Assembly: GCA_003225315.1 (NCBI GenBank)
Contig: QHZD01000019.1
Span: 62,001-126,000 of the forward strand
Origin: Acidobacteriota bacterium
GTDB taxonomy: Bacteria; Acidobacteriota; Terriglobia; Acidiferrales; UBA7541
Reading direction: 5' to 3'
DNA: 64,000 nt
Both the position numbers and the translations under genes were made by a program. The notes beneath the pieces are model-generated. The model saw only the letters and a list, made by a program, of their open reading frames with translations. It had not been told where the DNA came from and ran no database searches. Below are positions 5,717 through 15,537 of the stretch, piece after piece. Each line of letters begins with the position of its first letter. The first letter of the stretch is position 1.

Positions 5717-8452
5717 ATGCCACGAACCCAGACGACTGAAGACCGCCGGCTCGAAGAAGCGCGCGCCCGCAAGAAGCATTGGAAGCGCTGGGGGCCTTAT
5801 CTTTCTGAGCGGCAGTGGGGAACGGTCCGCGAGGATTACAGCCCCGGCGGCACGGCTTGGGAATATTTTCCGCACGACCACGCGCGTTCCCGCGCCTACC
5901 GCTGGGGAGAAGACGGCATCGGCGGGATCAGCGACCGTCACCAGATGATGTGTTTCGGACTGGCGCTTTGGAATGGGCGTGACTCCATCTTGAAAGAGCG
6001 CCTCTTCGGCCTCACCGGAAATCAGGGCAATCACGGCGAGGACGTGAAGGAGTATTACTTCTACCTCGATTCAACTCCGACTCACAGCTACATGCGCATG
6101 TTGTACAAGTATCCGCAAGCCGAATTTCCGTATCAGACTTTGCTCGATGAGAATCGCCGGCGGGGACGCAGCCAGCCGGAATTCGAATTGCTCGACACCG
6201 GTGTTTTTGGTGAAAACCGCTACTTCGACCTCTTCGTTGAATACGCCAAAGCCGACGTCGAGGACATTCTGATCCGAATCACAGCGGTGAATCGCGGCCC
6301 GGAATCCGCTACATTGCACCTGCTGCCCCAATTCTGGTTTCGAAACACATGGGCCTGGGGCAGGGACCTACGCCGCCCGGTGGCCCGAAAAGCCGCTTTC
6401 ATACCTGGAAGTGCCTGTGCGGAATTACAACATTGGCAGTACGGCAAGCGCTGGCTGCTGTGCGGCGGGCAGCCCGAGTTGCTTTTCACGGAAAATGAAA
6501 CGAATAGTGCGCGTCTCTTCAGCGTAGGAAATCGCTCACCCTATGTGAAAGACGCTTTCCACGAATATGTGATTCATAGCAACAAAGCCGCGGTCAACCC
6601 CGGGCAGATGGGAACGAAAATGGCTGCCTATTACTTGTTGCAACTTGCCCCCAGCCAGTCCGCCACTCTCAAACTGCGACTCACCGATATAGAACCGCTT
6701 AGCGGGATGGACCCGAACTCCGCAATGGTCGGGATCATCTCGTCGCCCGGACACGCTGAGCGCGCCGAAGGCGTTCCCGCCACCAATGACTTTGAAGGCG
6801 GATTCGACGGACTTTTCGCAACGCGCCAAAAGGAAGCTGAAGAGTTTTACGCTGCAAGGATTCCCAAAGATCTTTCCGAGGACGCGAAGGCCGTAATGCG
6901 GCAATCGTTTTCAGGAATGCTCTGGTCCAAGCAGTTTTATCACTACGATGTTCGAACTTGGCTTGAAGGCGATCCTGGTGGCTCCCCGCCACCCCCAGAG
7001 CGCTGGCACGGCCGCAACAAGGATTGGACGCATCTTTACAACGAAGACATTCTGTCCATGCCGGATAAATGGGAATATCCGTGGTACGCAGCGTGGGACC
7101 TCGCGTTTCACTGTATTCCCCTGGCGCTCGTCGATCCCGATTTCGCCAAGGATCAGCTCATCCTTCTTTTGCGCGAGTGGTACATGCACCCCAACGGCCA
7201 ATTGCCCGCCTACGAATGGGCTTTCAGCGATGTCAACCCTCCGGTTCATGCCTGGGCCGCATGGCGTGTTTACAAAATCGAGCGGCGCATGCGCGGTGTG
7301 GCCGACCGTGGTTTTCTCGAAAGGGTGTTTCACAAATTACTCTTGAATTTCACCTGGTGGGTCAACCGCAAGGATCCCGACGGCGCGAATATCTTTGAGG
7401 GAGGATTCCTCGGCCTCGATAACATCGGTGTCTTTGACCGTTCCGCGCCTCTCCCGACCGGAGGCCACCTCGAACAGTCTGACGGGACCAGTTGGATGGG
7501 CATGTACTGCCTCAATATGTTGGCGATCGCCCTGGAATTGGCCAAAGAAGATCCTGCTTATGAAGACGTCGCCAGCAAGTTTTTCGAGCATTTCGTTTAC
7601 ATCGCTCGCGCCCTGAACGATTTCGGCATCGGCGGGATGTCCCTCTGGGACGATGCCGATGGCTTTTACTATGACGTCTTAAAGCTTCCGAACGGAGAAG
7701 AGCATTTCTTGAAAATCCGTTCCATGGTTGGATTGATCCCGCTATTTGCAGTAGAGACCCTCGAGCCGGAGATCGTCGATCGCCTCCCAGGCTTCAAGCG
7801 CCGCATGCAATGGTTTATTGACAATCATCCGGATGTTTCCGAGCACATCGAAATGACGGAACATTCTGCGCGAGGCGTACGGCGTCTCCTCTCTCTCGTC
7901 AACCGCAAGCGCCTCAAGCGCGTGCTCAGCCGCATGCTCGACGAAACCGAATTCCTTTCGCCCTACGGAGTGCGCGCCCTTTCGCGTTACCATAAGGAAC
8001 ATCCGTACGAAGTGCAAGTGAACGGAATGACGAACCGCGTCGAGTATGAGCCGGGCGAATCCACGACCGGCCTCTTCGGCGGGAATTCAAACTGGCGCGG
8101 CCCCATCTGGTTTCCCGTCAACTACCTGCTGGTGGAATCGCTGCAAAAATTTCATCATTACTTCGGGGAAGATTTCAAAGTGGAGTGCCCCACGAATTCC
8201 AGAACCGAGTCCGATCTCTGGCAGGTAGCCGCGGAAATTTCCCGGCGGTTGATTCGCATTTTTCTTCGCGATTCAAGCGGGCGTCGGCCCGTGGCTGGCG
8301 CTACTCAGCTTTTTCAGAGCGACCCGCACTGGCGCGACCTCATCCTTTTCTACGAATGCTTTCATGGCGACGATGGCTCGGGGATTGGCGCCAGCCATCA
8401 AACCGGCTGGACCGGCCTGGTCGCAAAGCTGATCGAACAGAGTGGCGAATAA
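5717..8452 (+). CDS. GH63 / MGH1-like glycoside hydrolase (glucosidase)
   Basis: This 911-residue protein without a signal peptide matches the bacterial glucosidase family related to GH63 (mannosyl-oligosaccharide-glucosidase-like, MGH1-like domain). Family features are the N-terminal [20 protein letters not shown] start, an N-terminal beta-sandwich region (residues about 30-320) and a C-terminal (alpha/alpha)6 barrel with [29 protein letters not shown] and [18 protein letters not shown]. Such enzymes cleave alpha-glucosidic bonds in oligosaccharides or glucosyl-compatible solutes; the exact substrate cannot be told from sequence. It is followed after 65 nt by an amylo-alpha-1,6-glucosidase gene on the same strand, which points to glycogen, maltodextrin or trehalose metabolism in the cytoplasm. 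A GAGGG lies about 10 nt before the ATG. Confidence 0.85.
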
Positions 8453-8517
8453 CGCATCAGAACGCTGATGTTTACGGGCGTTCACAGATTCACCTCTCTG
8501 CGGCCAAGGAGCGGCCA

Positions 8518-10536
8518 GTGTCAGAGCAAGCGGAGATTCAGTTTGGCCGCGAGATTTGTGGCGATCTTGCTGTTGCCGAATCGCGCGAGTGGCTTGTCAC
8601 CAATGGAATCGGTGGATACGCTTCCGGCACGGTCGGCGGCAGCCAGACTCGCCGCTATCACGGGCTGCTCGTCGCGGCTCTGCAGCCGCCTTTGGGGCGC
8701 ACGCAACTCGTCTCGGCCATCGATGAAATTGTCCACTACACCGGAGCGGATTTCTCTCTCGCCACCCATCGCTGGGGCAGCGGCGCGGTCGATCCCAAAG
8801 GTTTTCTCCTCCTCGAGGATTTTCATCTGGAAGGCTCGACGCCTGTTTGGACTTACGCGCTAGCCGACGCGCTTTTGGAAAAGCGCGTCTGGATGCGTCA
8901 GTGCGAAAACACCACTTTCATTCAGTACACGCTTCTGCGGGGTAACGGCGCGCTCGAATTGGAAATGAAAGCGCTCGTGAATTATCGCGACTTCCATTCC
9001 TTGACACACGCAGGCGATTGGCGCATGGACATCGCTCCCGTAGAGCAGGGCATCAAGGTGCAGGCATTTGACGGTGCGACTCCTTTTTACCTGAAAAGCT
9101 CTTCTGCAACGTGCGAGCCCCGCCACGAGTGGTATCTGGGCTGCTATTTCGCCGAAGAAACCGAGCGCGGCCTCGAGGACCGTGAAGATCGCCTTTTCGC
9201 CGCCCTATTCCGCACAAAATTGCAAGTGGGTTCCAGCGTCACGCTCGTGGCGACCACGGAGTCGACGGCTCCCTTCGATGGGGAAACAGCAAGAGCGGAG
9301 CGAGCCAATCACGATGTGAAGCTGTTCCATGAGTGGCAAGCGAGAAACGAAGCCCTTGCGGAAGAAACCCCTTCATGGCTCTGGCAGCTCATTCTCGCAG
9401 CCGATCAATTCATCGTTAAGCGCAGCCTTCCCGAAGAGCCGGACGGCCGCAGCATCATTGCGGGCTATCATTGGTTTGGCGACTGGGGGCGTGACAGCAT
9501 GATTGCGCTTTCGGGGCTCACGCTCGCAACTGGCCGCGCCGATGTTGCCCGCCAAACTCTTTTGGCCTTTTCCAGATACGTGGATGCTGGGATGCTCCCC
9601 AACAATTTTCCGGACGCTGGTGGCATGCCAGAATACAACACTGTCGACGCTGCGCTCTGGTTTTTCGAAGCCATCCGGCAATATGTTGCGGCAACCCAGG
9701 ATACCGCGACGCTACAAAAACTTTTTCCTGTTCTCGCCGCCATGATCGAGGCGCACGTCGCGGGCACTCGCTACAACATCCATGTCGATCCCGCCGATGG
9801 ACTTCTTTACGCCGGCGGTCCCGCAGTTCAGCTCACGTGGATGGACGCAAAAATCGGCGACTGGGTGGTGACGCCCCGCACCGGGAAGCCCGTCGAAATC
9901 AACGCACTGTGGATTAGCGCCCTCGAAACGATGGCGGGATTTGCCCGTTTGCTCGCGAAACCCACCGATGCTTACGAAAGACAAGCGGCCAAAGCTAAGA
10001 ACAGTTATCAGAAGTTTTGGAATGCGGACCGCAATTGCTGCTTCGACGTCATCGATTCACCTGGCATCGGAAACGACGCCTCCCTTCGACCGAATCAGAT
10101 TTTTGCCGTCTCCTTGCCGGTCAGCCCGCTCACCCAGGAGCAACGAGGGGCAGTCGTCGATGTTTGCGCGCGCCATCTCTTGACCTCGAATGGATTGCGC
10201 AGTCTCGCCCCCGGCGAACCCGGATACACGGGGCATTACGGTGGCGGCCCGCGCGATCGTGACGCCGCTTATCATCAAGGTACTGTCTGGGGCTGGCTTC
10301 TCGGACCCTTTTCGCTGGCGCATTACCGCGTCTACCAGGATCGCAAGGCGGCGCTGCGTTTTCTCGAGCCGCTCGGTTGCCAGATTTATGCGAGCGGACT
10401 CGGCACCTTAAGCGAGATTTTCGATGGCGATCCTCCCTTCACTCCGCGCGGCTGCATCGCTCAAGCATGGACGGTCGCCGAAGTCTTGCGGGCTTGGCAG
10501 GAAATAGCAGACGGAAAAAAATCTGCAAGCGCATAG
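8518..10536 (+). CDS. Amylo-alpha-1,6-glucosidase / glycogen debranching enzyme family
   Basis: The 672-residue protein has an N-terminal debranching-enzyme domain (REWLVTNGIGGYASGTVGG, RRYHGLLVAAL) and a C-terminal (alpha/alpha)6 glucosidase domain with GYHWFGDWGRDSMIALSGL, NFPDAGGMPEYNTVDAALW, LTWMDAK and YHQGTVWGWLLGPF. The two expected acidic patches are present. It hydrolyses alpha-1,6 branch points in glycogen or limit dextrins. The frame is open well upstream into the preceding gene, but that part overlaps the GH63 gene. The start chosen is GTG at 8518, with AAGGAG 6 nt upstream, giving the typical family length. It forms a two-gene unit with the upstream glucosidase. Confidence 0.9.
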   Translation: MSEQAEIQFGREICGDLAVAESREWLVTNGIGGYASGTVGGSQTRRYHGLLVAALQPPLGRTQLVSAIDEIVHYTGADFSLATHRWGSGAVDPKGFLLLEDFHLEGSTPVWTYALADALLEKRVWMRQCENTTFIQYTLLRGNGALELEMKALVNYRDFHSLTHAGDWRMDIAPVEQGIKVQAFDGATPFYLKSSSATCEPRHEWYLGCYFAEETERGLEDREDRLFAALFRTKLQVGSSVTLVATTESTAPFDGETARAERANHDVKLFHEWQARNEALAEETPSWLWQLILAADQFIVKRSLPEEPDGRSIIAGYHWFGDWGRDSMIALSGLTLATGRADVARQTLLAFSRYVDAGMLPNNFPDAGGMPEYNTVDAALWFFEAIRQYVAATQDTATLQKLFPVLAAMIEAHVAGTRYNIHVDPADGLLYAGGPAVQLTWMDAKIGDWVVTPRTGKPVEINALWISALETMAGFARLLAKPTDAYERQAAKAKNSYQKFWNADRNCCFDVIDSPGIGNDASLRPNQIFAVSLPVSPLTQEQRGAVVDVCARHLLTSNGLRSLAPGEPGYTGHYGGGPRDRDAAYHQGTVWGWLLGPFSLAHYRVYQDRKAALRFLEPLGCQIYASGLGTLSEIFDGDPPFTPRGCIAQAWTVAEVLRAWQEIADGKKSASA

Positions 10537-11254: not shown

Positions 11255-12928
11255 ATGCCAAAACCAGTTTTATTAACAGTAGATGACGACCCGGAAGTCC
11301 TCCGGGCCATTGAGCGCGATCTGCGCAGCCGTTACGCGGATCGCTACCGCGTTATGCGCGCGAATTCCGGAAGCGCCGGCCTTGCCACTTTGCGCGAATT
11401 GAAAGCACGCAACAACCCTGTAGCGCTGTTGCTAGCGGATCAGCGTATGCCCCAAATGGACGGCGTAAATTTCCTCTCCGAAGCCATGGAGATGCACCCT
11501 CTTGCCAAGCGTGCCCTGCTGACCGCATACGCGGATACCAACGCTGCCATCGACGCCATCAACGAAGCCCGCGTGCACTACTACCTGATGAAGCCGTGGG
11601 AGCCGCCTGAAGAAAAGCTCTTTCCCGCACTTGATGATCTGCTGCATGACTGGACAGCGACGTTTCGCCCGCCCTATGAAGGCATTCGCGTTCTCGGCAC
11701 GCGCTGGTCAAATCGTTCCTATGAGCTGCGCGAATTCCTTGCGCGCAATCAAGTCCCGTATCAATGGATTGACGTCGAGTTGGCCCAGTCTGATCCCGAA
11801 GTGCGCGGCCTGATTGATTCCCTGGGGCCGGAGGCCGAAAAGCTTCCGTTGATCCTTTTCCAAGATGGCACCCGCCTGCCGGAGCCGCCTCTGCCTACCG
11901 TCGCGGACAAAATCGGGCTGCGTACGCATGCGCAAACCAATTTCTATGATCTTGCAATTGTCGGAGGCGGCCCTGCGGGTCTTGCGGCGGCTGTGTACGG
12001 CGCGAGCGAAGGCTTGCGCACGGTAATCGTCGAACGCGAAGCCCCCGGAGGCCAGGCGGGTCTGAGTTCTCGTATCGAGAACTATCTCGGCTTTCCTTCC
12101 GGACTCACTGGACTTGACTTAGCCCGCCGCGCCGTTGCGCAGGCCCGGCGCTTCGGCGTGGAGATTATCGCGCCGCAGGAAGCCGTCGGCATTCGTGTTG
12201 AGGGCCCGTACCGGTTTTTGAAACTCGCCGATGGTTCGGAGATCTCCTGTCACGCTCTTCTCTTGGCCATGGGCGTTCAGTGGAGGACCCTGGACGTTCC
12301 GGGGATTGACCACTTGCAGGGCGCCGGTGTGTATTACGGCGGAGGAACCTCCGAAGCGATGGCTTGCAAGGGCGAAACGGTGTACATCATTGGCGGCGCG
12401 AATTCCGCCGGCCAGGCCGCCATGCACTTTTCGAAGTTTGCCGAAAAGGTGGTGATGCTGGTGCGAGGAGTGTCCCTTGCTGCCACAATGTCTCACTACT
12501 TGATCGAGCAAATCGAGAAGACTCCCAATATTGAAGTGTGGTCGCGGGCCAGCGTTGTTGAGGTAGAAGGAGAATCGCGGCTCACGGCAATTACTGTGGA
12601 GTGCTCCCCTTCGGGAGAAAGAAAGAAATTGCCGGCCTCAAGCCTGTTTATTTTCATCGGCGCGCAGCCGCGCACCGAATGGCTTGGCGCTTCGATTGAT
12701 CGCGACGAGCGCGGTTTTGTTCTTTCCGGCCCGGACCTTCTTCGCAACGGAAAGAGGCCAGCGTCTTGGACCCTCGATCGTGACCCGGGTTTGCTTGAAA
12801 CGAATGTGCCTGGAATTTTTGTCGTCGGTGATGTGCGCCACGGTTCTGTCAAGCGCGTGGCCTCCGGTGTCGGAGAGGGCGCCGTCGTCGTGCAATTCAT
12901 GCATCAATATTTAGCGAAGGTCCAATGA
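11255..12928 (+). CDS. Receiver domain fused to glutaredoxin-like and thioredoxin-reductase-like (FAD/NADPH) domains
   Basis: A 557-residue, three-part protein. Residues 1-130 are a CheY-like receiver with TVDDD, phospho-acceptor Asp62 in LLADQRMP, the switch Thr in LLTAYAD and Lys in LMKPWEP. Residues about 143-225 resemble a glutaredoxin/thioredoxin fold (RVLGTRWSNRSYELREFL), but its active-site cysteines are absent. From about 230 there is a thioredoxin-reductase-like flavoprotein: FAD motif LAIVGGGPAGLAAAVYG, NADPH motif VYIIGGANSAGQAA and C-terminal GIFVVGDVRHGSVKRVASG. At the place of the usual CATC redox dithiol the sequence is GGGTSEA (about 362-368), so ordinary thioredoxin reduction is unlikely. 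The stop overlaps the start of the histidine kinase gene by 4 nt, which suggests the kinase phosphorylates this receiver. Such fusions recur in bacteria, but their substrate is not established. Confidence 0.88.
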   Translation: MPKPVLLTVDDDPEVLRAIERDLRSRYADRYRVMRANSGSAGLATLRELKARNNPVALLLADQRMPQMDGVNFLSEAMEMHPLAKRALLTAYADTNAAIDAINEARVHYYLMKPWEPPEEKLFPALDDLLHDWTATFRPPYEGIRVLGTRWSNRSYELREFLARNQVPYQWIDVELAQSDPEVRGLIDSLGPEAEKLPLILFQDGTRLPEPPLPTVADKIGLRTHAQTNFYDLAIVGGGPAGLAAAVYGASEGLRTVIVEREAPGGQAGLSSRIENYLGFPSGLTGLDLARRAVAQARRFGVEIIAPQEAVGIRVEGPYRFLKLADGSEISCHALLLAMGVQWRTLDVPGIDHLQGAGVYYGGGTSEAMACKGETVYIIGGANSAGQAAMHFSKFAEKVVMLVRGVSLAATMSHYLIEQIEKTPNIEVWSRASVVEVEGESRLTAITVECSPSGERKKLPASSLFIFIGAQPRTEWLGASIDRDERGFVLSGPDLLRNGKRPASWTLDRDPGLLETNVPGIFVVGDVRHGSVKRVASGVGEGAVVVQFMHQYLAKVQ

Positions 12929-14334
12929 GCGAAGCACTCGATCAAGCGCGGATGGAGGCCTTGGTTGCGGAGCTGAGGAAAATTCCGCCGTTCGCGGATC
13001 AGCCTCAAACCGATCTCGAATGGTTTGTGGCGCAAACGGAAGAACGCAAGGTCGAAGTGGGTGGAATCATCGTCAAGGAAGGCGCTCCGGCGGACACCAT
13101 GCTGGTGATCCTGGAGGGTGAATTCCGGGCCCGGCGCGAGAACGGCCCTCAAGATGGCCCAGTCTTTACTGCCCGTGCCGGAGATGTAACAGGCGTCCTG
13201 CCTTTCTCCAGAATGAAAACCGTTAGCGTAACCGGGCGCGCTGTGCTTCCTGTTCGTGCCCTGACGTTTCCGGCCGCTAAGTTTCCGGAACTCTTTCAGC
13301 GGATGCCCGAGCTTTCCCAGCGCCTCGTTGGCCTTCTGACCGACCGAGTCCGAAACGTCACCAGGGAAGAACAACAAAGAGAAAAGCTGGCTGCGCTCGG
13401 CAAGCTCTCCGCCGGGCTCGCGCACGAGCTGAACAACCCTTCCGCGGCAGCGCGGCGTTCTGCGGCTTCGCTTCGCGATTGCCTCCAGCGGCTGCGCGCC
13501 GCCGGCCGCAGTTCGCGCCTGGGTCCGGAGGATTGCGGTTTGCTTGCGCAACGCGAGGAAGAAATTCGCGCCACGCTGAAGCCTGCTGAAAGCAAGGATG
13601 AATTTGCACGCGTCGAGCGCGAAGAAGCCATTCAATCCTGGTTGGAACACCGCGGCGTTACCGAAGCCTGGAAACTCGCGCCTCTTCTAGCCGACGCAAA
13701 CTTGACGGACGCGCAACTGGAGAGCTTTGCCGGTGCCGCCGGAACTTCGCTTGGGCCAGAGCTCGCGCGCTTCGCCACTCTCCTCGAAATGGAACGCATC
13801 GCCGACGAACTCGATCACAGCACTGCGCGCATCTCGGATCTCATCAAAGCAATCAAAGAATATTCCTACATGGACCAGGCGCCGCTCCAGGAAGTGGACA
13901 TCAAGAACAGCCTGGAAACGACGCTCATCATCATGCATCACAAGCTGAAGCGTGGCATCGTGGTCACGCGCGAATTTGCCTCCGACTTGCCGAAGGTAAT
14001 GGCTTACGGCAGCGAGTTGAATCAAGTATGGACAAACCTTATCGATAATGCCGTCGACGCCATGAAGGAAAAGGGCAAGCTGGTCGTGCGTGCCGTGCGC
14101 GAAAATGAGTACGTGCTCGTGGAGATCGCCGACGACGGGCCGGGTATCCCGCCGGAAGTACAATCGCGCATCTTTGAGCCGTTTTTTACGACTAAGGGCG
14201 TTGGCGAAGGAACCGGCCTCGGCTTGGATGTAGTCCATCGCATCGTGAAGAAAATGCGTGGGCTCATCAGCGTAAAGTCCGTTCCCGGAGATACGCGGTT
14301 CCAGGTGCGAATTCCAATTCAAGCTGCAATGTGA
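12925..14334 (+). CDS. Soluble sensor histidine kinase with N-terminal cNMP-binding-like domain
   Basis: A 469-residue protein. Residues about 10-140 form a Crp-like cyclic-nucleotide-binding beta-barrel (FADQPQTDLEWFV, GGIIVKEGAPADTMLVILEGE), although the phosphate-binding cassette of true cAMP sensors is not recognisable. A coiled stretch leads to the kinase core: H-box with His167 in LSAGLAHELNNP, N-box NQVWTNLIDNAVDAM, G1 DDGPGIP, F-box FEPFFTTKG and G2 GTGLGLDVVHRI. About 170 residues separate the H-box from the N-box, longer than usual, and may hold an extra helical module. There are no membrane segments, so it acts in the cytoplasm. The ATGA overlap with the upstream receiver fusion implies translational coupling and a cognate pair. 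The signal is unknown. Confidence 0.88.
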   Translation: MSEALDQARMEALVAELRKIPPFADQPQTDLEWFVAQTEERKVEVGGIIVKEGAPADTMLVILEGEFRARRENGPQDGPVFTARAGDVTGVLPFSRMKTVSVTGRAVLPVRALTFPAAKFPELFQRMPELSQRLVGLLTDRVRNVTREEQQREKLAALGKLSAGLAHELNNPSAAARRSAASLRDCLQRLRAAGRSSRLGPEDCGLLAQREEEIRATLKPAESKDEFARVEREEAIQSWLEHRGVTEAWKLAPLLADANLTDAQLESFAGAAGTSLGPELARFATLLEMERIADELDHSTARISDLIKAIKEYSYMDQAPLQEVDIKNSLETTLIIMHHKLKRGIVVTREFASDLPKVMAYGSELNQVWTNLIDNAVDAMKEKGKLVVRAVRENEYVLVEIADDGPGIPPEVQSRIFEPFFTTKGVGEGTGLGLDVVHRIVKKMRGLISVKSVPGDTRFQVRIPIQAAM

Positions 14335-14350
14335 TTTCGCGGGAGAAAGC

Positions 14351-14617
14351 ATGGCGGAAAACTGTACTCATCTCGATCAAATCAAGAACGTGAAGCCGAA
14401 GACCAGGGGCTGCGAAGAGTGTCTGAAGATGGGCGATAGCTGGGTGCATTTGCGTCTGTGCTTGAGCTGCGGTCATGTCGGATGTTGTGACTCTTCCAAG
14501 AACAAACACGCCACAAAACATTTTCATGCCACGAAGCATCCCATTGTCCGGTCACAGGAGCCGGGCGAAAACTGGATGTGGTGTTACGTCGATGATCTGA
14601 TGTTTGAAGAGGAATGA
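14351..14617 (+). CDS. UBP-type zinc-finger protein
   Basis: This 88-residue protein is almost wholly a UBP/BUZ-type zinc finger. The ligand series is C5-x-H7, C21-x2-C24, C37-x2-C40, C45, then H53, H57/H59 and H63, with the family's TRGCEEC and CLSCGHVGCCDSS signatures. In eukaryotes this fold binds the free C-terminal Gly-Gly of ubiquitin; bacteria with such a finger generally lack ubiquitin, so the ligand here is unknown. It lies 16 nt after the kinase stop with GGGAGA upstream of its ATG, so it is probably the third gene of the receiver-reductase / kinase unit. A signalling adaptor that docks on a protein C-terminus is one possible role (inference). Confidence 0.88.
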   Translation: MAENCTHLDQIKNVKPKTRGCEECLKMGDSWVHLRLCLSCGHVGCCDSSKNKHATKHFHATKHPIVRSQEPGENWMWCYVDDLMFEEE

Positions 14618-14619
14618 CC

Positions 14620-15537
14620 CTACTTTTTCTTCTTTCCTGGGATCAGGACCGAAGCCAGCAGAGCAATCAGCAGTACTCCCCCCACAACGCCAAGAGATAC
14701 GGTCTCGGGAATGTGCACCCACTGTTCGCCGATCATTTTTCCCCCGATAAAAACCAGGACGACCGCCAATCCCTCATCCAAGAAGCGCAAACGGTCGATG
14801 ACTCCCGCCAACAGAAAGTACAGCGCCCGAAGCCCCAAAATCGCGAGCACATTCGATGTGTACACAATGAAAGGATCGCGAGTAATGCCGAACACCGCGG
14901 GGATGGAGTCCACGGCCAGCGTGACGTCCGTAATCTCCACCACAAGCAAAACCAGAAACAATGGAGTCGCAAACAACCGGCCCGCATTGCGAACGAAGAA
15001 ACGATCACCATGATACTCGTGGCTTATTCGGAGATGCCGGCTCGCGAAGCGCACGATCCTGCTTTGCTCCGGATGAATATCTCCCTTGTGAAAGAAGAGC
15101 ATGCGCGCACCGGCGTAGACGAGGAACGCTCCCAGCACATACAACACCCAGGAAAAATGTTGGATTAGCTCCGTGCCCAGCGCGATCATCACTCCTCGCA
15201 TGAGCAATGCCCCCACAACGCCCCATTCCAGAAGGCGGTGCTGCAGCCGTTCATCCACGGCAAACGCGCGGAAAATCACCAGGAAAAGGAACAGGTTGTC
15301 GACGCTGAGAGCCTTTTCGATCAGATAGCCCGTGAAAAATTCCAGTGCCAGTTGCTCGCCATAAAAATAGAGCACTCCGAATCCAAAGAGGACGGAGACC
15401 GCGATCCAGCCAAAACTCGCAAGCGCCGCCTCGCGAATCTCGATCTTGTGCGGTCGCCGGTGGAATACACGCAGGTCCAGCGCGATCGCAATGGCGATGA
15501 AGAGGTTGAACGCAATCCAGTGGAGGGGCGTCCCCAT
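14620..15537 (-). CDS. TerC/Alx-family integral membrane protein
   Basis: A 305-residue polytopic membrane protein of the TerC family, with about eight to nine hydrophobic segments. Family hallmarks are LIEKALSVDNLFLFLVIF (residues about 73-90), the paired acidic EITDVTLAVDSIPAVFGIT and GLRALYFLLAG. TerC/Alx proteins act in metal-ion handling; Alx has been tied to manganese export and some TerC homologues to metalation of secreted enzymes. The C-terminus ends in a run of lysines. Its stop lies 2 nt from that of the convergent UBP-finger gene, so the two transcripts probably overlap at their 3' ends. Confidence 0.9.
   Translation of the reverse strand: MGTPLHWIAFNLFIAIAIALDLRVFHRRPHKIEIREAALASFGWIAVSVLFGFGVLYFYGEQLALEFFTGYLIEKALSVDNLFLFLVIFRAFAVDERLQHRLLEWGVVGALLMRGVMIALGTELIQHFSWVLYVLGAFLVYAGARMLFFHKGDIHPEQSRIVRFASRHLRISHEYHGDRFFVRNAGRLFATPLFLVLLVVEITDVTLAVDSIPAVFGITRDPFIVYTSNVLAILGLRALYFLLAGVIDRLRFLDEGLAVVLVFIGGKMIGEQWVHIPETVSLGVVGGVLLIALLASVLIPGKKKK

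Follow-up and report, generated by a model that had tools for sequence, protein, structure and literature searches.

What can a protein of the thioredoxin reductase (TrxR) fold contribute to a cell once both of the cysteine pairs behind its chemistry are gone, and what does it mean that such a protein carries a signalling receiver? The question is raised by a three-gene module in a soil acidobacterium, located in a 64,000-nucleotide stretch of contig QHZD01000019.1 (positions 62,001 to 126,000 of the forward strand), which we analysed as a whole and call the window. On its plus strand, where all module features given below lie, a 557-residue open reading frame (ORF; 11255..12928) encodes a flavoprotein in which a receiver (REC) domain and a degenerate glutaredoxin (Grx)-like segment precede a TrxR-like core. 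A histidine kinase gene (12925..14334, 469 residues) and a gene for an 88-residue zinc finger protein of the zf-UBP family (14351..14617; Pfam PF02148) follow. The flavoprotein and kinase ORFs overlap by the four nucleotides ATGA (12925-12928), with the kinase start inside the flavoprotein stop, and 16 nt separate the kinase and zf-UBP genes. Response_reg, Pyr_redox_2, HATPase_c, cNMP_binding and zf-UBP are all found above their Pfam cut-offs on the three proteins. The coordinates, domains and 4-nt overlap of the original prediction, made from this sequence alone, were borne out by ORF and Pfam checks, and the gene set is exactly as it was placed there: receiver in front, kinase overlapping, zinc finger after. 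Overall, the most likely reading, in which we place slightly better than even confidence, is that the flavoprotein would be an NAD(P)H flavoenzyme gated by phosphorylation and devoid of thiol chemistry.

Redox cysteines and the flavin core

The TrxR-like FAD/NAD(P) core (residues 231-545; 11945..12889; Pfam PF07992, 115 bits) reads GGGTSEA (residues 362-368; 12338..12358) at the position of the CATC redox pair, which the window genome's own canonical TrxR, encoded by a separate gene, retains. In the Grx-like segment (residues 142-224; 11678..11926), the Grx site reads WSNRS, with SNRS (11708-11719) in place of the CPxC-type active site of a glutaredoxin. No separate Pfam match covers this segment at E 0.01; in a profile comparison it aligns with the Grx segments of seven related Grx-TrxR fusions with intact cysteines (hhalign 99.8%, E 9.6e-28), and the Pfam Glutaredoxin model is passed by all three of these fusions that were scanned.

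Relatives were collected from named genome contigs, from 149 Acidobacteriota and 119 Actinomycetota genomes, and from plasmids. The 97 clade rows include many close acidobacterial relatives and exclude matches below 24% identity, broken or truncated loci (L039, L042), duplicates (L065, L117, L119) and canonical or unrelated sequences (L058, L064, L111); plasmid loci L175-L180 also stand outside this set. CxxC is present at the Grx site in 0/97 rows and at the TrxR site in 0/97. All seven cysteine-intact fusions, in which our own hidden Markov models (HMMs) detect neither a receiver nor a CNB (cNMP-binding fold) domain, keep both pairs. The cysteine-less pattern is conserved at ~50-62% identity in other phyla and is therefore beyond chance, and the predicted GGGTSEA for CATC and cysteine-free Grx-like domain are confirmed in the window and across the clade.

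The original prediction had named a redox cysteine pair elsewhere in the fold as the finding that would count against it, and none is conserved. The window flavoprotein contains only three cysteines (332, 371 and 450), and we rejected an alternative pair on finding that these same columns are the only ones to hold Cys in at least 3 of 44 near-relative rows. C332 is present in 45/73 REC rows and in 0/20 CNB rows, and three of the 97 rows (L073, L074, L079) have a CxxC somewhere in the Grx-TrxR part, at neither active site. Across the 97 rows we found no second cysteine conserved throughout the clade and no conserved replacement pair.

In a quick tree of 83 rows, rooted on five canonical TrxRs and with the CxxC columns kept in, a single clade (SH-aLRT 100) holds the 71 cysteine-less flavoproteins, which come from at least seven phyla. 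Excluded from the tree were 33 loci classed as near-copies, truncated or unrelated; this group includes L088 and L094, which are related to rows that were kept but are not near-copies of them. The nearest rows outside the clade are the seven cysteine-intact fusions, for which no single clade of their own is shown. The cysteine state needs one change on this tree, and the input domain at least four. Since canonical TrxRs and cysteine-intact fusions both carry the pair, loss is the economical history: an ancestral Grx-TrxR relay would have been stripped of both pairs on a single branch, after which what remained would have been wired to signalling inputs.

The rest of the core is that of a two-domain FAD/NAD(P) TrxR by Pfam, phmmer and model match. 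TrxRs rank far above FNRs in a phmmer search of the PDB (best E values of 2.2e-41 and 1.5e-15, respectively). The structure prediction of 11255-12928 proposed earlier as a check recovered the TrxR-like core (pLDDT 84.3, pTM 0.68): the model fits solved TrxRs over residues 227-557, best of all 5mh4 (Z 35.2, 1.8 Å over 301 residues), with the receiver and Grx-like parts hardly covered among the PDB matches listed. FNR structures are also among the model matches (8c16, Z 28.4, 3.0 Å over 304 residues), and the TrxR-like FNRs are a known precedent for this fold without CXXC, as described in PMC8564101. The flavoprotein might then be an analogue of these enzymes, its reduced flavin serving ferredoxin, flavodoxin or another protein cofactor. 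We consider this improbable, given that the sequence lies closer to true TrxRs and that no gene named ferredoxin or flavodoxin was found in 14 annotated plasmid stretches with incomplete gene tables.

Columns that are fixed in the clade and differ from canonical TrxR (canonical residue in brackets) include S251 (R), Q387 (E), Y415, H550 (E) and R534 (Q), each in 71 of 71 rows. The Arg534 column (12854..12856) holds Gln in 23/23 canonical rows and in six of seven fusion rows, the seventh being a gap, and the RQ motif of all 23 canonical rows reads KR in the window flavoprotein. This site presumably opens the helix that, in the TrxR fold, is directed at the flavin pyrimidine; a positive charge there would stabilise reduced flavin. 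The pyridine-nucleotide domain keeps its GxGxxA-type glycines. Its HRRxxxR, given in PMC8564101 as the motif for the NADP 2'-phosphate, is degraded: canonical HRRNDFRA aligns with VRGVSLAA in the window, where R404 is the sole residue kept, and among REC or CNB rows the first Arg (R404) is found in 93/93, with R or K at the second site in 2/93 and at the third in 3/93. Use of NADPH over NADH is therefore not established, and NADH is as likely; of the earlier statement that FAD and NADPH motifs are kept, the FAD part stands and the NADPH part is half right.

A pseudo-enzyme sensor would also suit the absence of the thiol relay from every member read, the degraded 2'-phosphate motif and the attachment of the core to signalling domains: in it, a core that does not turn over would still bind FAD and NAD(P) and inform the zf-UBP protein or the kinase of the redox state or dinucleotide level. 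This is an unlikely alternative in our judgement, in that conserved flavin-facing motifs and the clade-specific Arg534 are more typical of retained chemistry, and a receiver fusion would make the core an output rather than an input. Despite the lost relay, the kept FAD motifs and fold argue that the core is under selection.

Kinase, receiver and CNB input

The receiver (residues 7-118; 11273..11608; Pfam PF00072, 51 bits) has the acidic pocket and phosphoacceptor features of a response regulator, with D10-12, D62 (11438-11440), T90 and K113 invariant in all 23 rows of the flavoprotein alignment (A1). The kinase begins with a CNB domain (residues 41-126; 13045..13302; Pfam PF00027, 35.5 bits against a cut-off of 27.5), followed by an H-box, LAHELNNP, whose H167 (13423-13425) is invariant in the 22 rows of the kinase alignment (A2). 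No HisKA Pfam match was obtained for the kinase; we read a second helix, after an insert of ~100 residues and before HATPase_c, as DHp-like.

The kinase had been described as carrying a cNMP domain, which holds for the fold. No PF00211 nucleotide cyclase was found in the window genome (97.64% complete), PF00211 being the only cyclase class searched, so we take 'cNMP' as a fold name here and regard cAMP signalling as unsupported.

The association of kinase and flavoprotein extends well beyond the window. Among 42 named loci chosen by similarity to the window, 41 have a kinase and 30 a zf-UBP gene within 4.5 kb; the sequences of L021 and L032 stop shortly past the flavoprotein or kinase, the L021 kinase is cut by the contig end, and the L041 kinase is ~4 kb away on the other strand. 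With flavoprotein, kinase and zf-UBP written as A, K and U, the orders A-K-U, A-U-K, U-A-K, U-K-A and K-A-U were all seen, a variability that a functional set would show and frozen synteny would not. NCBI-annotated Streptomyces and Tsukamurella plasmids carry the same three genes with overlapping ends. The search across genomes suggested by the original prediction thus found a module that recurs in several phyla, in several orders. The L016 contig, labelled Betaproteobacteria, encodes the acidobacterial cluster at 85% identity and is perhaps a mislabelled metagenome bin. At L039:3522-5005, on one metagenome contig, the flavoprotein match is in several pieces, and kinase and UBP matches follow in one piece each.

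Joint retention and loss supports the pairing of kinase and receiver. Of 73 receiver rows, 63 combine an intact receiver with a kinase in the fetched stretch, and in eight the receiver is decayed at one or more key sites and a kinase is lacking within ~2 kb on each side. The remaining two are L145, near a contig end, with the acidic sites and Lys and no kinase, and L098, with a kinase and a cut N-terminus. The eight decayed rows and L145 make up one actinobacterial branch of nine (L138-L146, support 98), in which D62 is lost in seven (A, G or N) and the flavin core stays conserved. Such a joint loss would be expected if the kinase is the donor of the receiver, and we take the partner kinase to be the probable switch of the flavoprotein.

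A second form of the flavoprotein bears the CNB domain itself, in 20 rows according to our own HMM and in all three of those scanned with Pfam. As judged from domain content, a common core receives a common kind of input in two ways, either through a CNB domain of its own or through putative phosphotransfer from a CNB-containing kinase.

In the reading we favour, the CNB-containing kinase would autophosphorylate on H167 and pass the phosphate to D62 of the receiver, and phosphorylation of the receiver, which sits on the dead Grx-like linker, would alter the activity or access of the FAD/NAD(P)H core. The core would take hydride from NAD(P)H. Because both ancestral Grx-TrxR cysteine pairs were lost on one branch, it could not hand electrons to a disulfide; with the relay cysteines gone, the reduced flavin would therefore give them directly to a small acceptor, which may be O2, a quinone or a protein cofactor. 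The zf-UBP protein would be an associated target-recognition or adaptor subunit.

Zinc finger and neighbouring genes

Residues 3-86 of the window finger match 2ida, the closest PDB entry (E 2.2e-37), which was deposited as 'Hypothetical protein' and which we take to be R. palustris RPA1320. Eleven cysteines and histidines (C5, C21, C24, C37, C40, C45, C46, H53, H57, H63 and C78), presumably zinc ligands, are invariant in all 13 rows of the zf-UBP alignment (A3). The Arg of the CGR in ubiquitin-binding UBP fingers grips the C-terminal Gly-Gly of ubiquitin. Where USP16 has this Arg, in CGRNS, the aligned CCDSS has Asp47, invariant in 13/13 rows and kept also in four actinobacterial fingers (L101-L103, L106). 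The description of the finger as a ubiquitin-binding type therefore stands for the UBP Cys/His set and is unsupported for binding itself, as Asp47 replaces the gripping Arg; the ligand of the finger is probably not a ubiquitin tail. The L101-L103 fingers beside the flavoprotein lack counterparts of C5, H7 and C78 (the Cys of WCY) and may bind fewer zinc ions.

Flavoprotein and finger co-occur across genomes. Of the 149 Acidobacteriota genomes, 28 have the flavoprotein, 28 a zf-UBP gene and 20 both (Fisher 1.9e-12); the corresponding figures for the 119 Actinomycetota genomes are 24, 27 and 20 (Fisher 2.9e-13), both values being uncorrected for relatedness. The flavoprotein was counted at E <= 1e-60 in Acidobacteriota and at E <= 1e-120 in Actinomycetota, and zf-UBP above the Pfam cut-off; 18 of the 28 acidobacterial and 19 of the 24 actinobacterial proteins were read individually. 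One acidobacterial protein (G015) is cysteine-intact, and dropping it gives a Fisher value of 5.7e-13. Six weaker actinobacterial matches, when read, were cysteine-intact fusions, and ~20 genomes with only a ~320-residue match were taken as having canonical TrxR unread. By Pfam coordinates the two genes stand side by side in 5/20 acidobacterial and 6/20 actinobacterial genomes, to which tblastn adds G066; in the others they are apart or on different contigs. Similarly, a zf-UBP gene is present in 14 of 16 flavoprotein genomes reached through loci and adjacent in only 4 of the 16 loci. It is absent from all five actinobacterial genomes in which a cysteine-intact fusion stands without a clade member, and present in a sixth fusion-bearing genome, G256, which also has a clade member.

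Upstream of the module, genes for an MGH1-like glycosidase and a glycogen debranching enzyme (window 5717-10536) have similar counterparts in relatives, and cyanobacterial loci place a glycosidase gene (L030) or glgX and AGE-family genes (L041, L100, L175, L176) near the flavoprotein. Other neighbours on annotated stretches encode a universal stress protein, a DNA starvation/stationary phase protection protein, and ClpB and CbpM. This neighbourhood suggests a role in stress or reserve metabolism; on some other plasmid stretches no stress or reserve link was seen among the neighbours. An anti-phage defence system was considered and rejected, as each of the three proteins matched 0 PADLOC families at E 0.01. 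A TerC-family gene on the opposite strand (window 14620-15537) adjoins the zf-UBP gene, and a match to it lies near the module in 19 loci.

Together, these features can be cast as a bolder proposal, which we hold tentatively and regard as rather less than probable. The proteins would belong to a class of signal-gated flavin effectors that is widespread and so far unrecognised. On one branch, a thiol relay enzyme would have become an NAD(P)H flavin oxidase or electron donor under two-component or CNB control; partnered by a dedicated UBP finger that recognises a non-ubiquitin target, it would link a general-stress signal to a flavin-made oxidant or reductant.

Counterpoints and relation to known systems

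Several observations weigh against a phosphorylation-gated flavoenzyme that has left thiol chemistry. The first concern thiol partners. In actinobacteria, a trxA gene together with clpB is found near the CNB-type flavoproteins L106 and L136 and near L148, whose N-terminus has no Pfam CNB, with the UBP gene in between in the clusters of L106 (174-5302) and L136. On a Gloeocapsa plasmid (L178:3775-6311), thioredoxin-domain and DsbA-family genes directly precede an input-less, cysteine-less flavoprotein. No trxA match was found at any other clade locus in hand, the flanks differing in length.

These neighbours, and lone Cys371 (12365..12367), raise the possibility of residual thiol chemistry, in which Cys371 or the cysteines of a thioredoxin or zf-UBP partner would still take part in disulfide reduction. 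Cys371 is indeed common, in 59/73 REC rows and 17/20 CNB rows (76/93 overall). Several lineages have Thr, Val, Leu, Phe or Met in its place, so it is no universal catalytic residue; no second cysteine accompanies it clade-wide, and the conserved zf-UBP cysteines look like zinc ligands. We think residual thiol chemistry very improbable. The predicted output other than thiol reduction is supported by the absence of both redox pairs throughout the clade and mildly opposed by the thioredoxin and DsbA genes near a few members.

The other counterpoints concern gating, partners and the core. All exceptions to the kinase-receiver pairing fall in one branch, so their decay counts as a single evolutionary event, and the persistence of the L138-L146 core with no kinase nearby means that phosphorylation is not indispensable to the flavoprotein. 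The zf-UBP gene is missing from 2/16 locus genomes, 8/28 Acidobacteriota and 4/24 Actinomycetota with the flavoprotein. The degraded 2'-phosphate motif belongs here as well. Finally, the model lies closer to 5mh4, titled flavin-reducing (FR), at 1.8 Å than to 5mjk, titled flavin-oxidising (FO), at 7.0 Å over 300 residues, and we considered the FR orientation as proof of lost domain rotation. A canonical TrxR control folded at equal alignment depth (23 rows) also leans FR (3.0 versus 4.9 Å), which makes the orientation weak evidence, merely consistent with such a loss.

With low-Mr thioredoxin reductase (TIGR01292) and AhpF (TIGR03140), the window flavoprotein shares a common fold with FAD and pyridine-nucleotide domains and ~28% identity to solved TrxRs. 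It differs in lacking CATC, in its degraded HRRxxxR, in reading KR for RQ and in the receiver and dead Grx in front, and its 197.6 bits against the TIGR01292 equivalog fall below the curated cut-off of 343.45. The Grx-TrxR fusions (such as L095 and L132) have the same Grx and TrxR order, but keep CPxC-type and CATC-type pairs and show no REC or CNB by our own HMMs; such cysteine-intact fusions provide a natural comparison of an enzyme before and after its departure from thiol chemistry. TrxR-like FNRs (cereus FNR1/2) share the CXXC-less fold, according to PMC8564101, but are less similar to the window flavoprotein than TrxRs are by phmmer and are absent from our tree. Some members already have NCBI names, 'cyclic nucleotide-binding domain-containing thioredoxin-disulfide reductase' or 'FAD-dependent oxidoreductase' (L099-L106 read), and both sites place these in the same family; zf-UBP members are likewise named 'UBP-type zinc finger domain-containing protein'. 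We know of no receiver or CNB input on TrxR-like FNRs. The name 'thioredoxin-disulfide reductase' implies a disulfide reductase, yet the mechanism behind it needs the CxxC that these members lack. No paper on the REC fusion, the CNB-fused form or the bacterial zf-UBP link was found in a literature search with thin coverage of subscription journals.

If the favoured reading is true, a redox flavoenzyme joins the direct outputs of response regulators, a stress module is present in many genomes, and a concrete partner can be proposed for bacterial zf-UBP proteins. Compared with known systems, members already carry NCBI names and the CXXC-less TrxR-like fold has a precedent in the FNRs; what would be new is a two-component output module built on a redox flavoprotein that left thiol chemistry.

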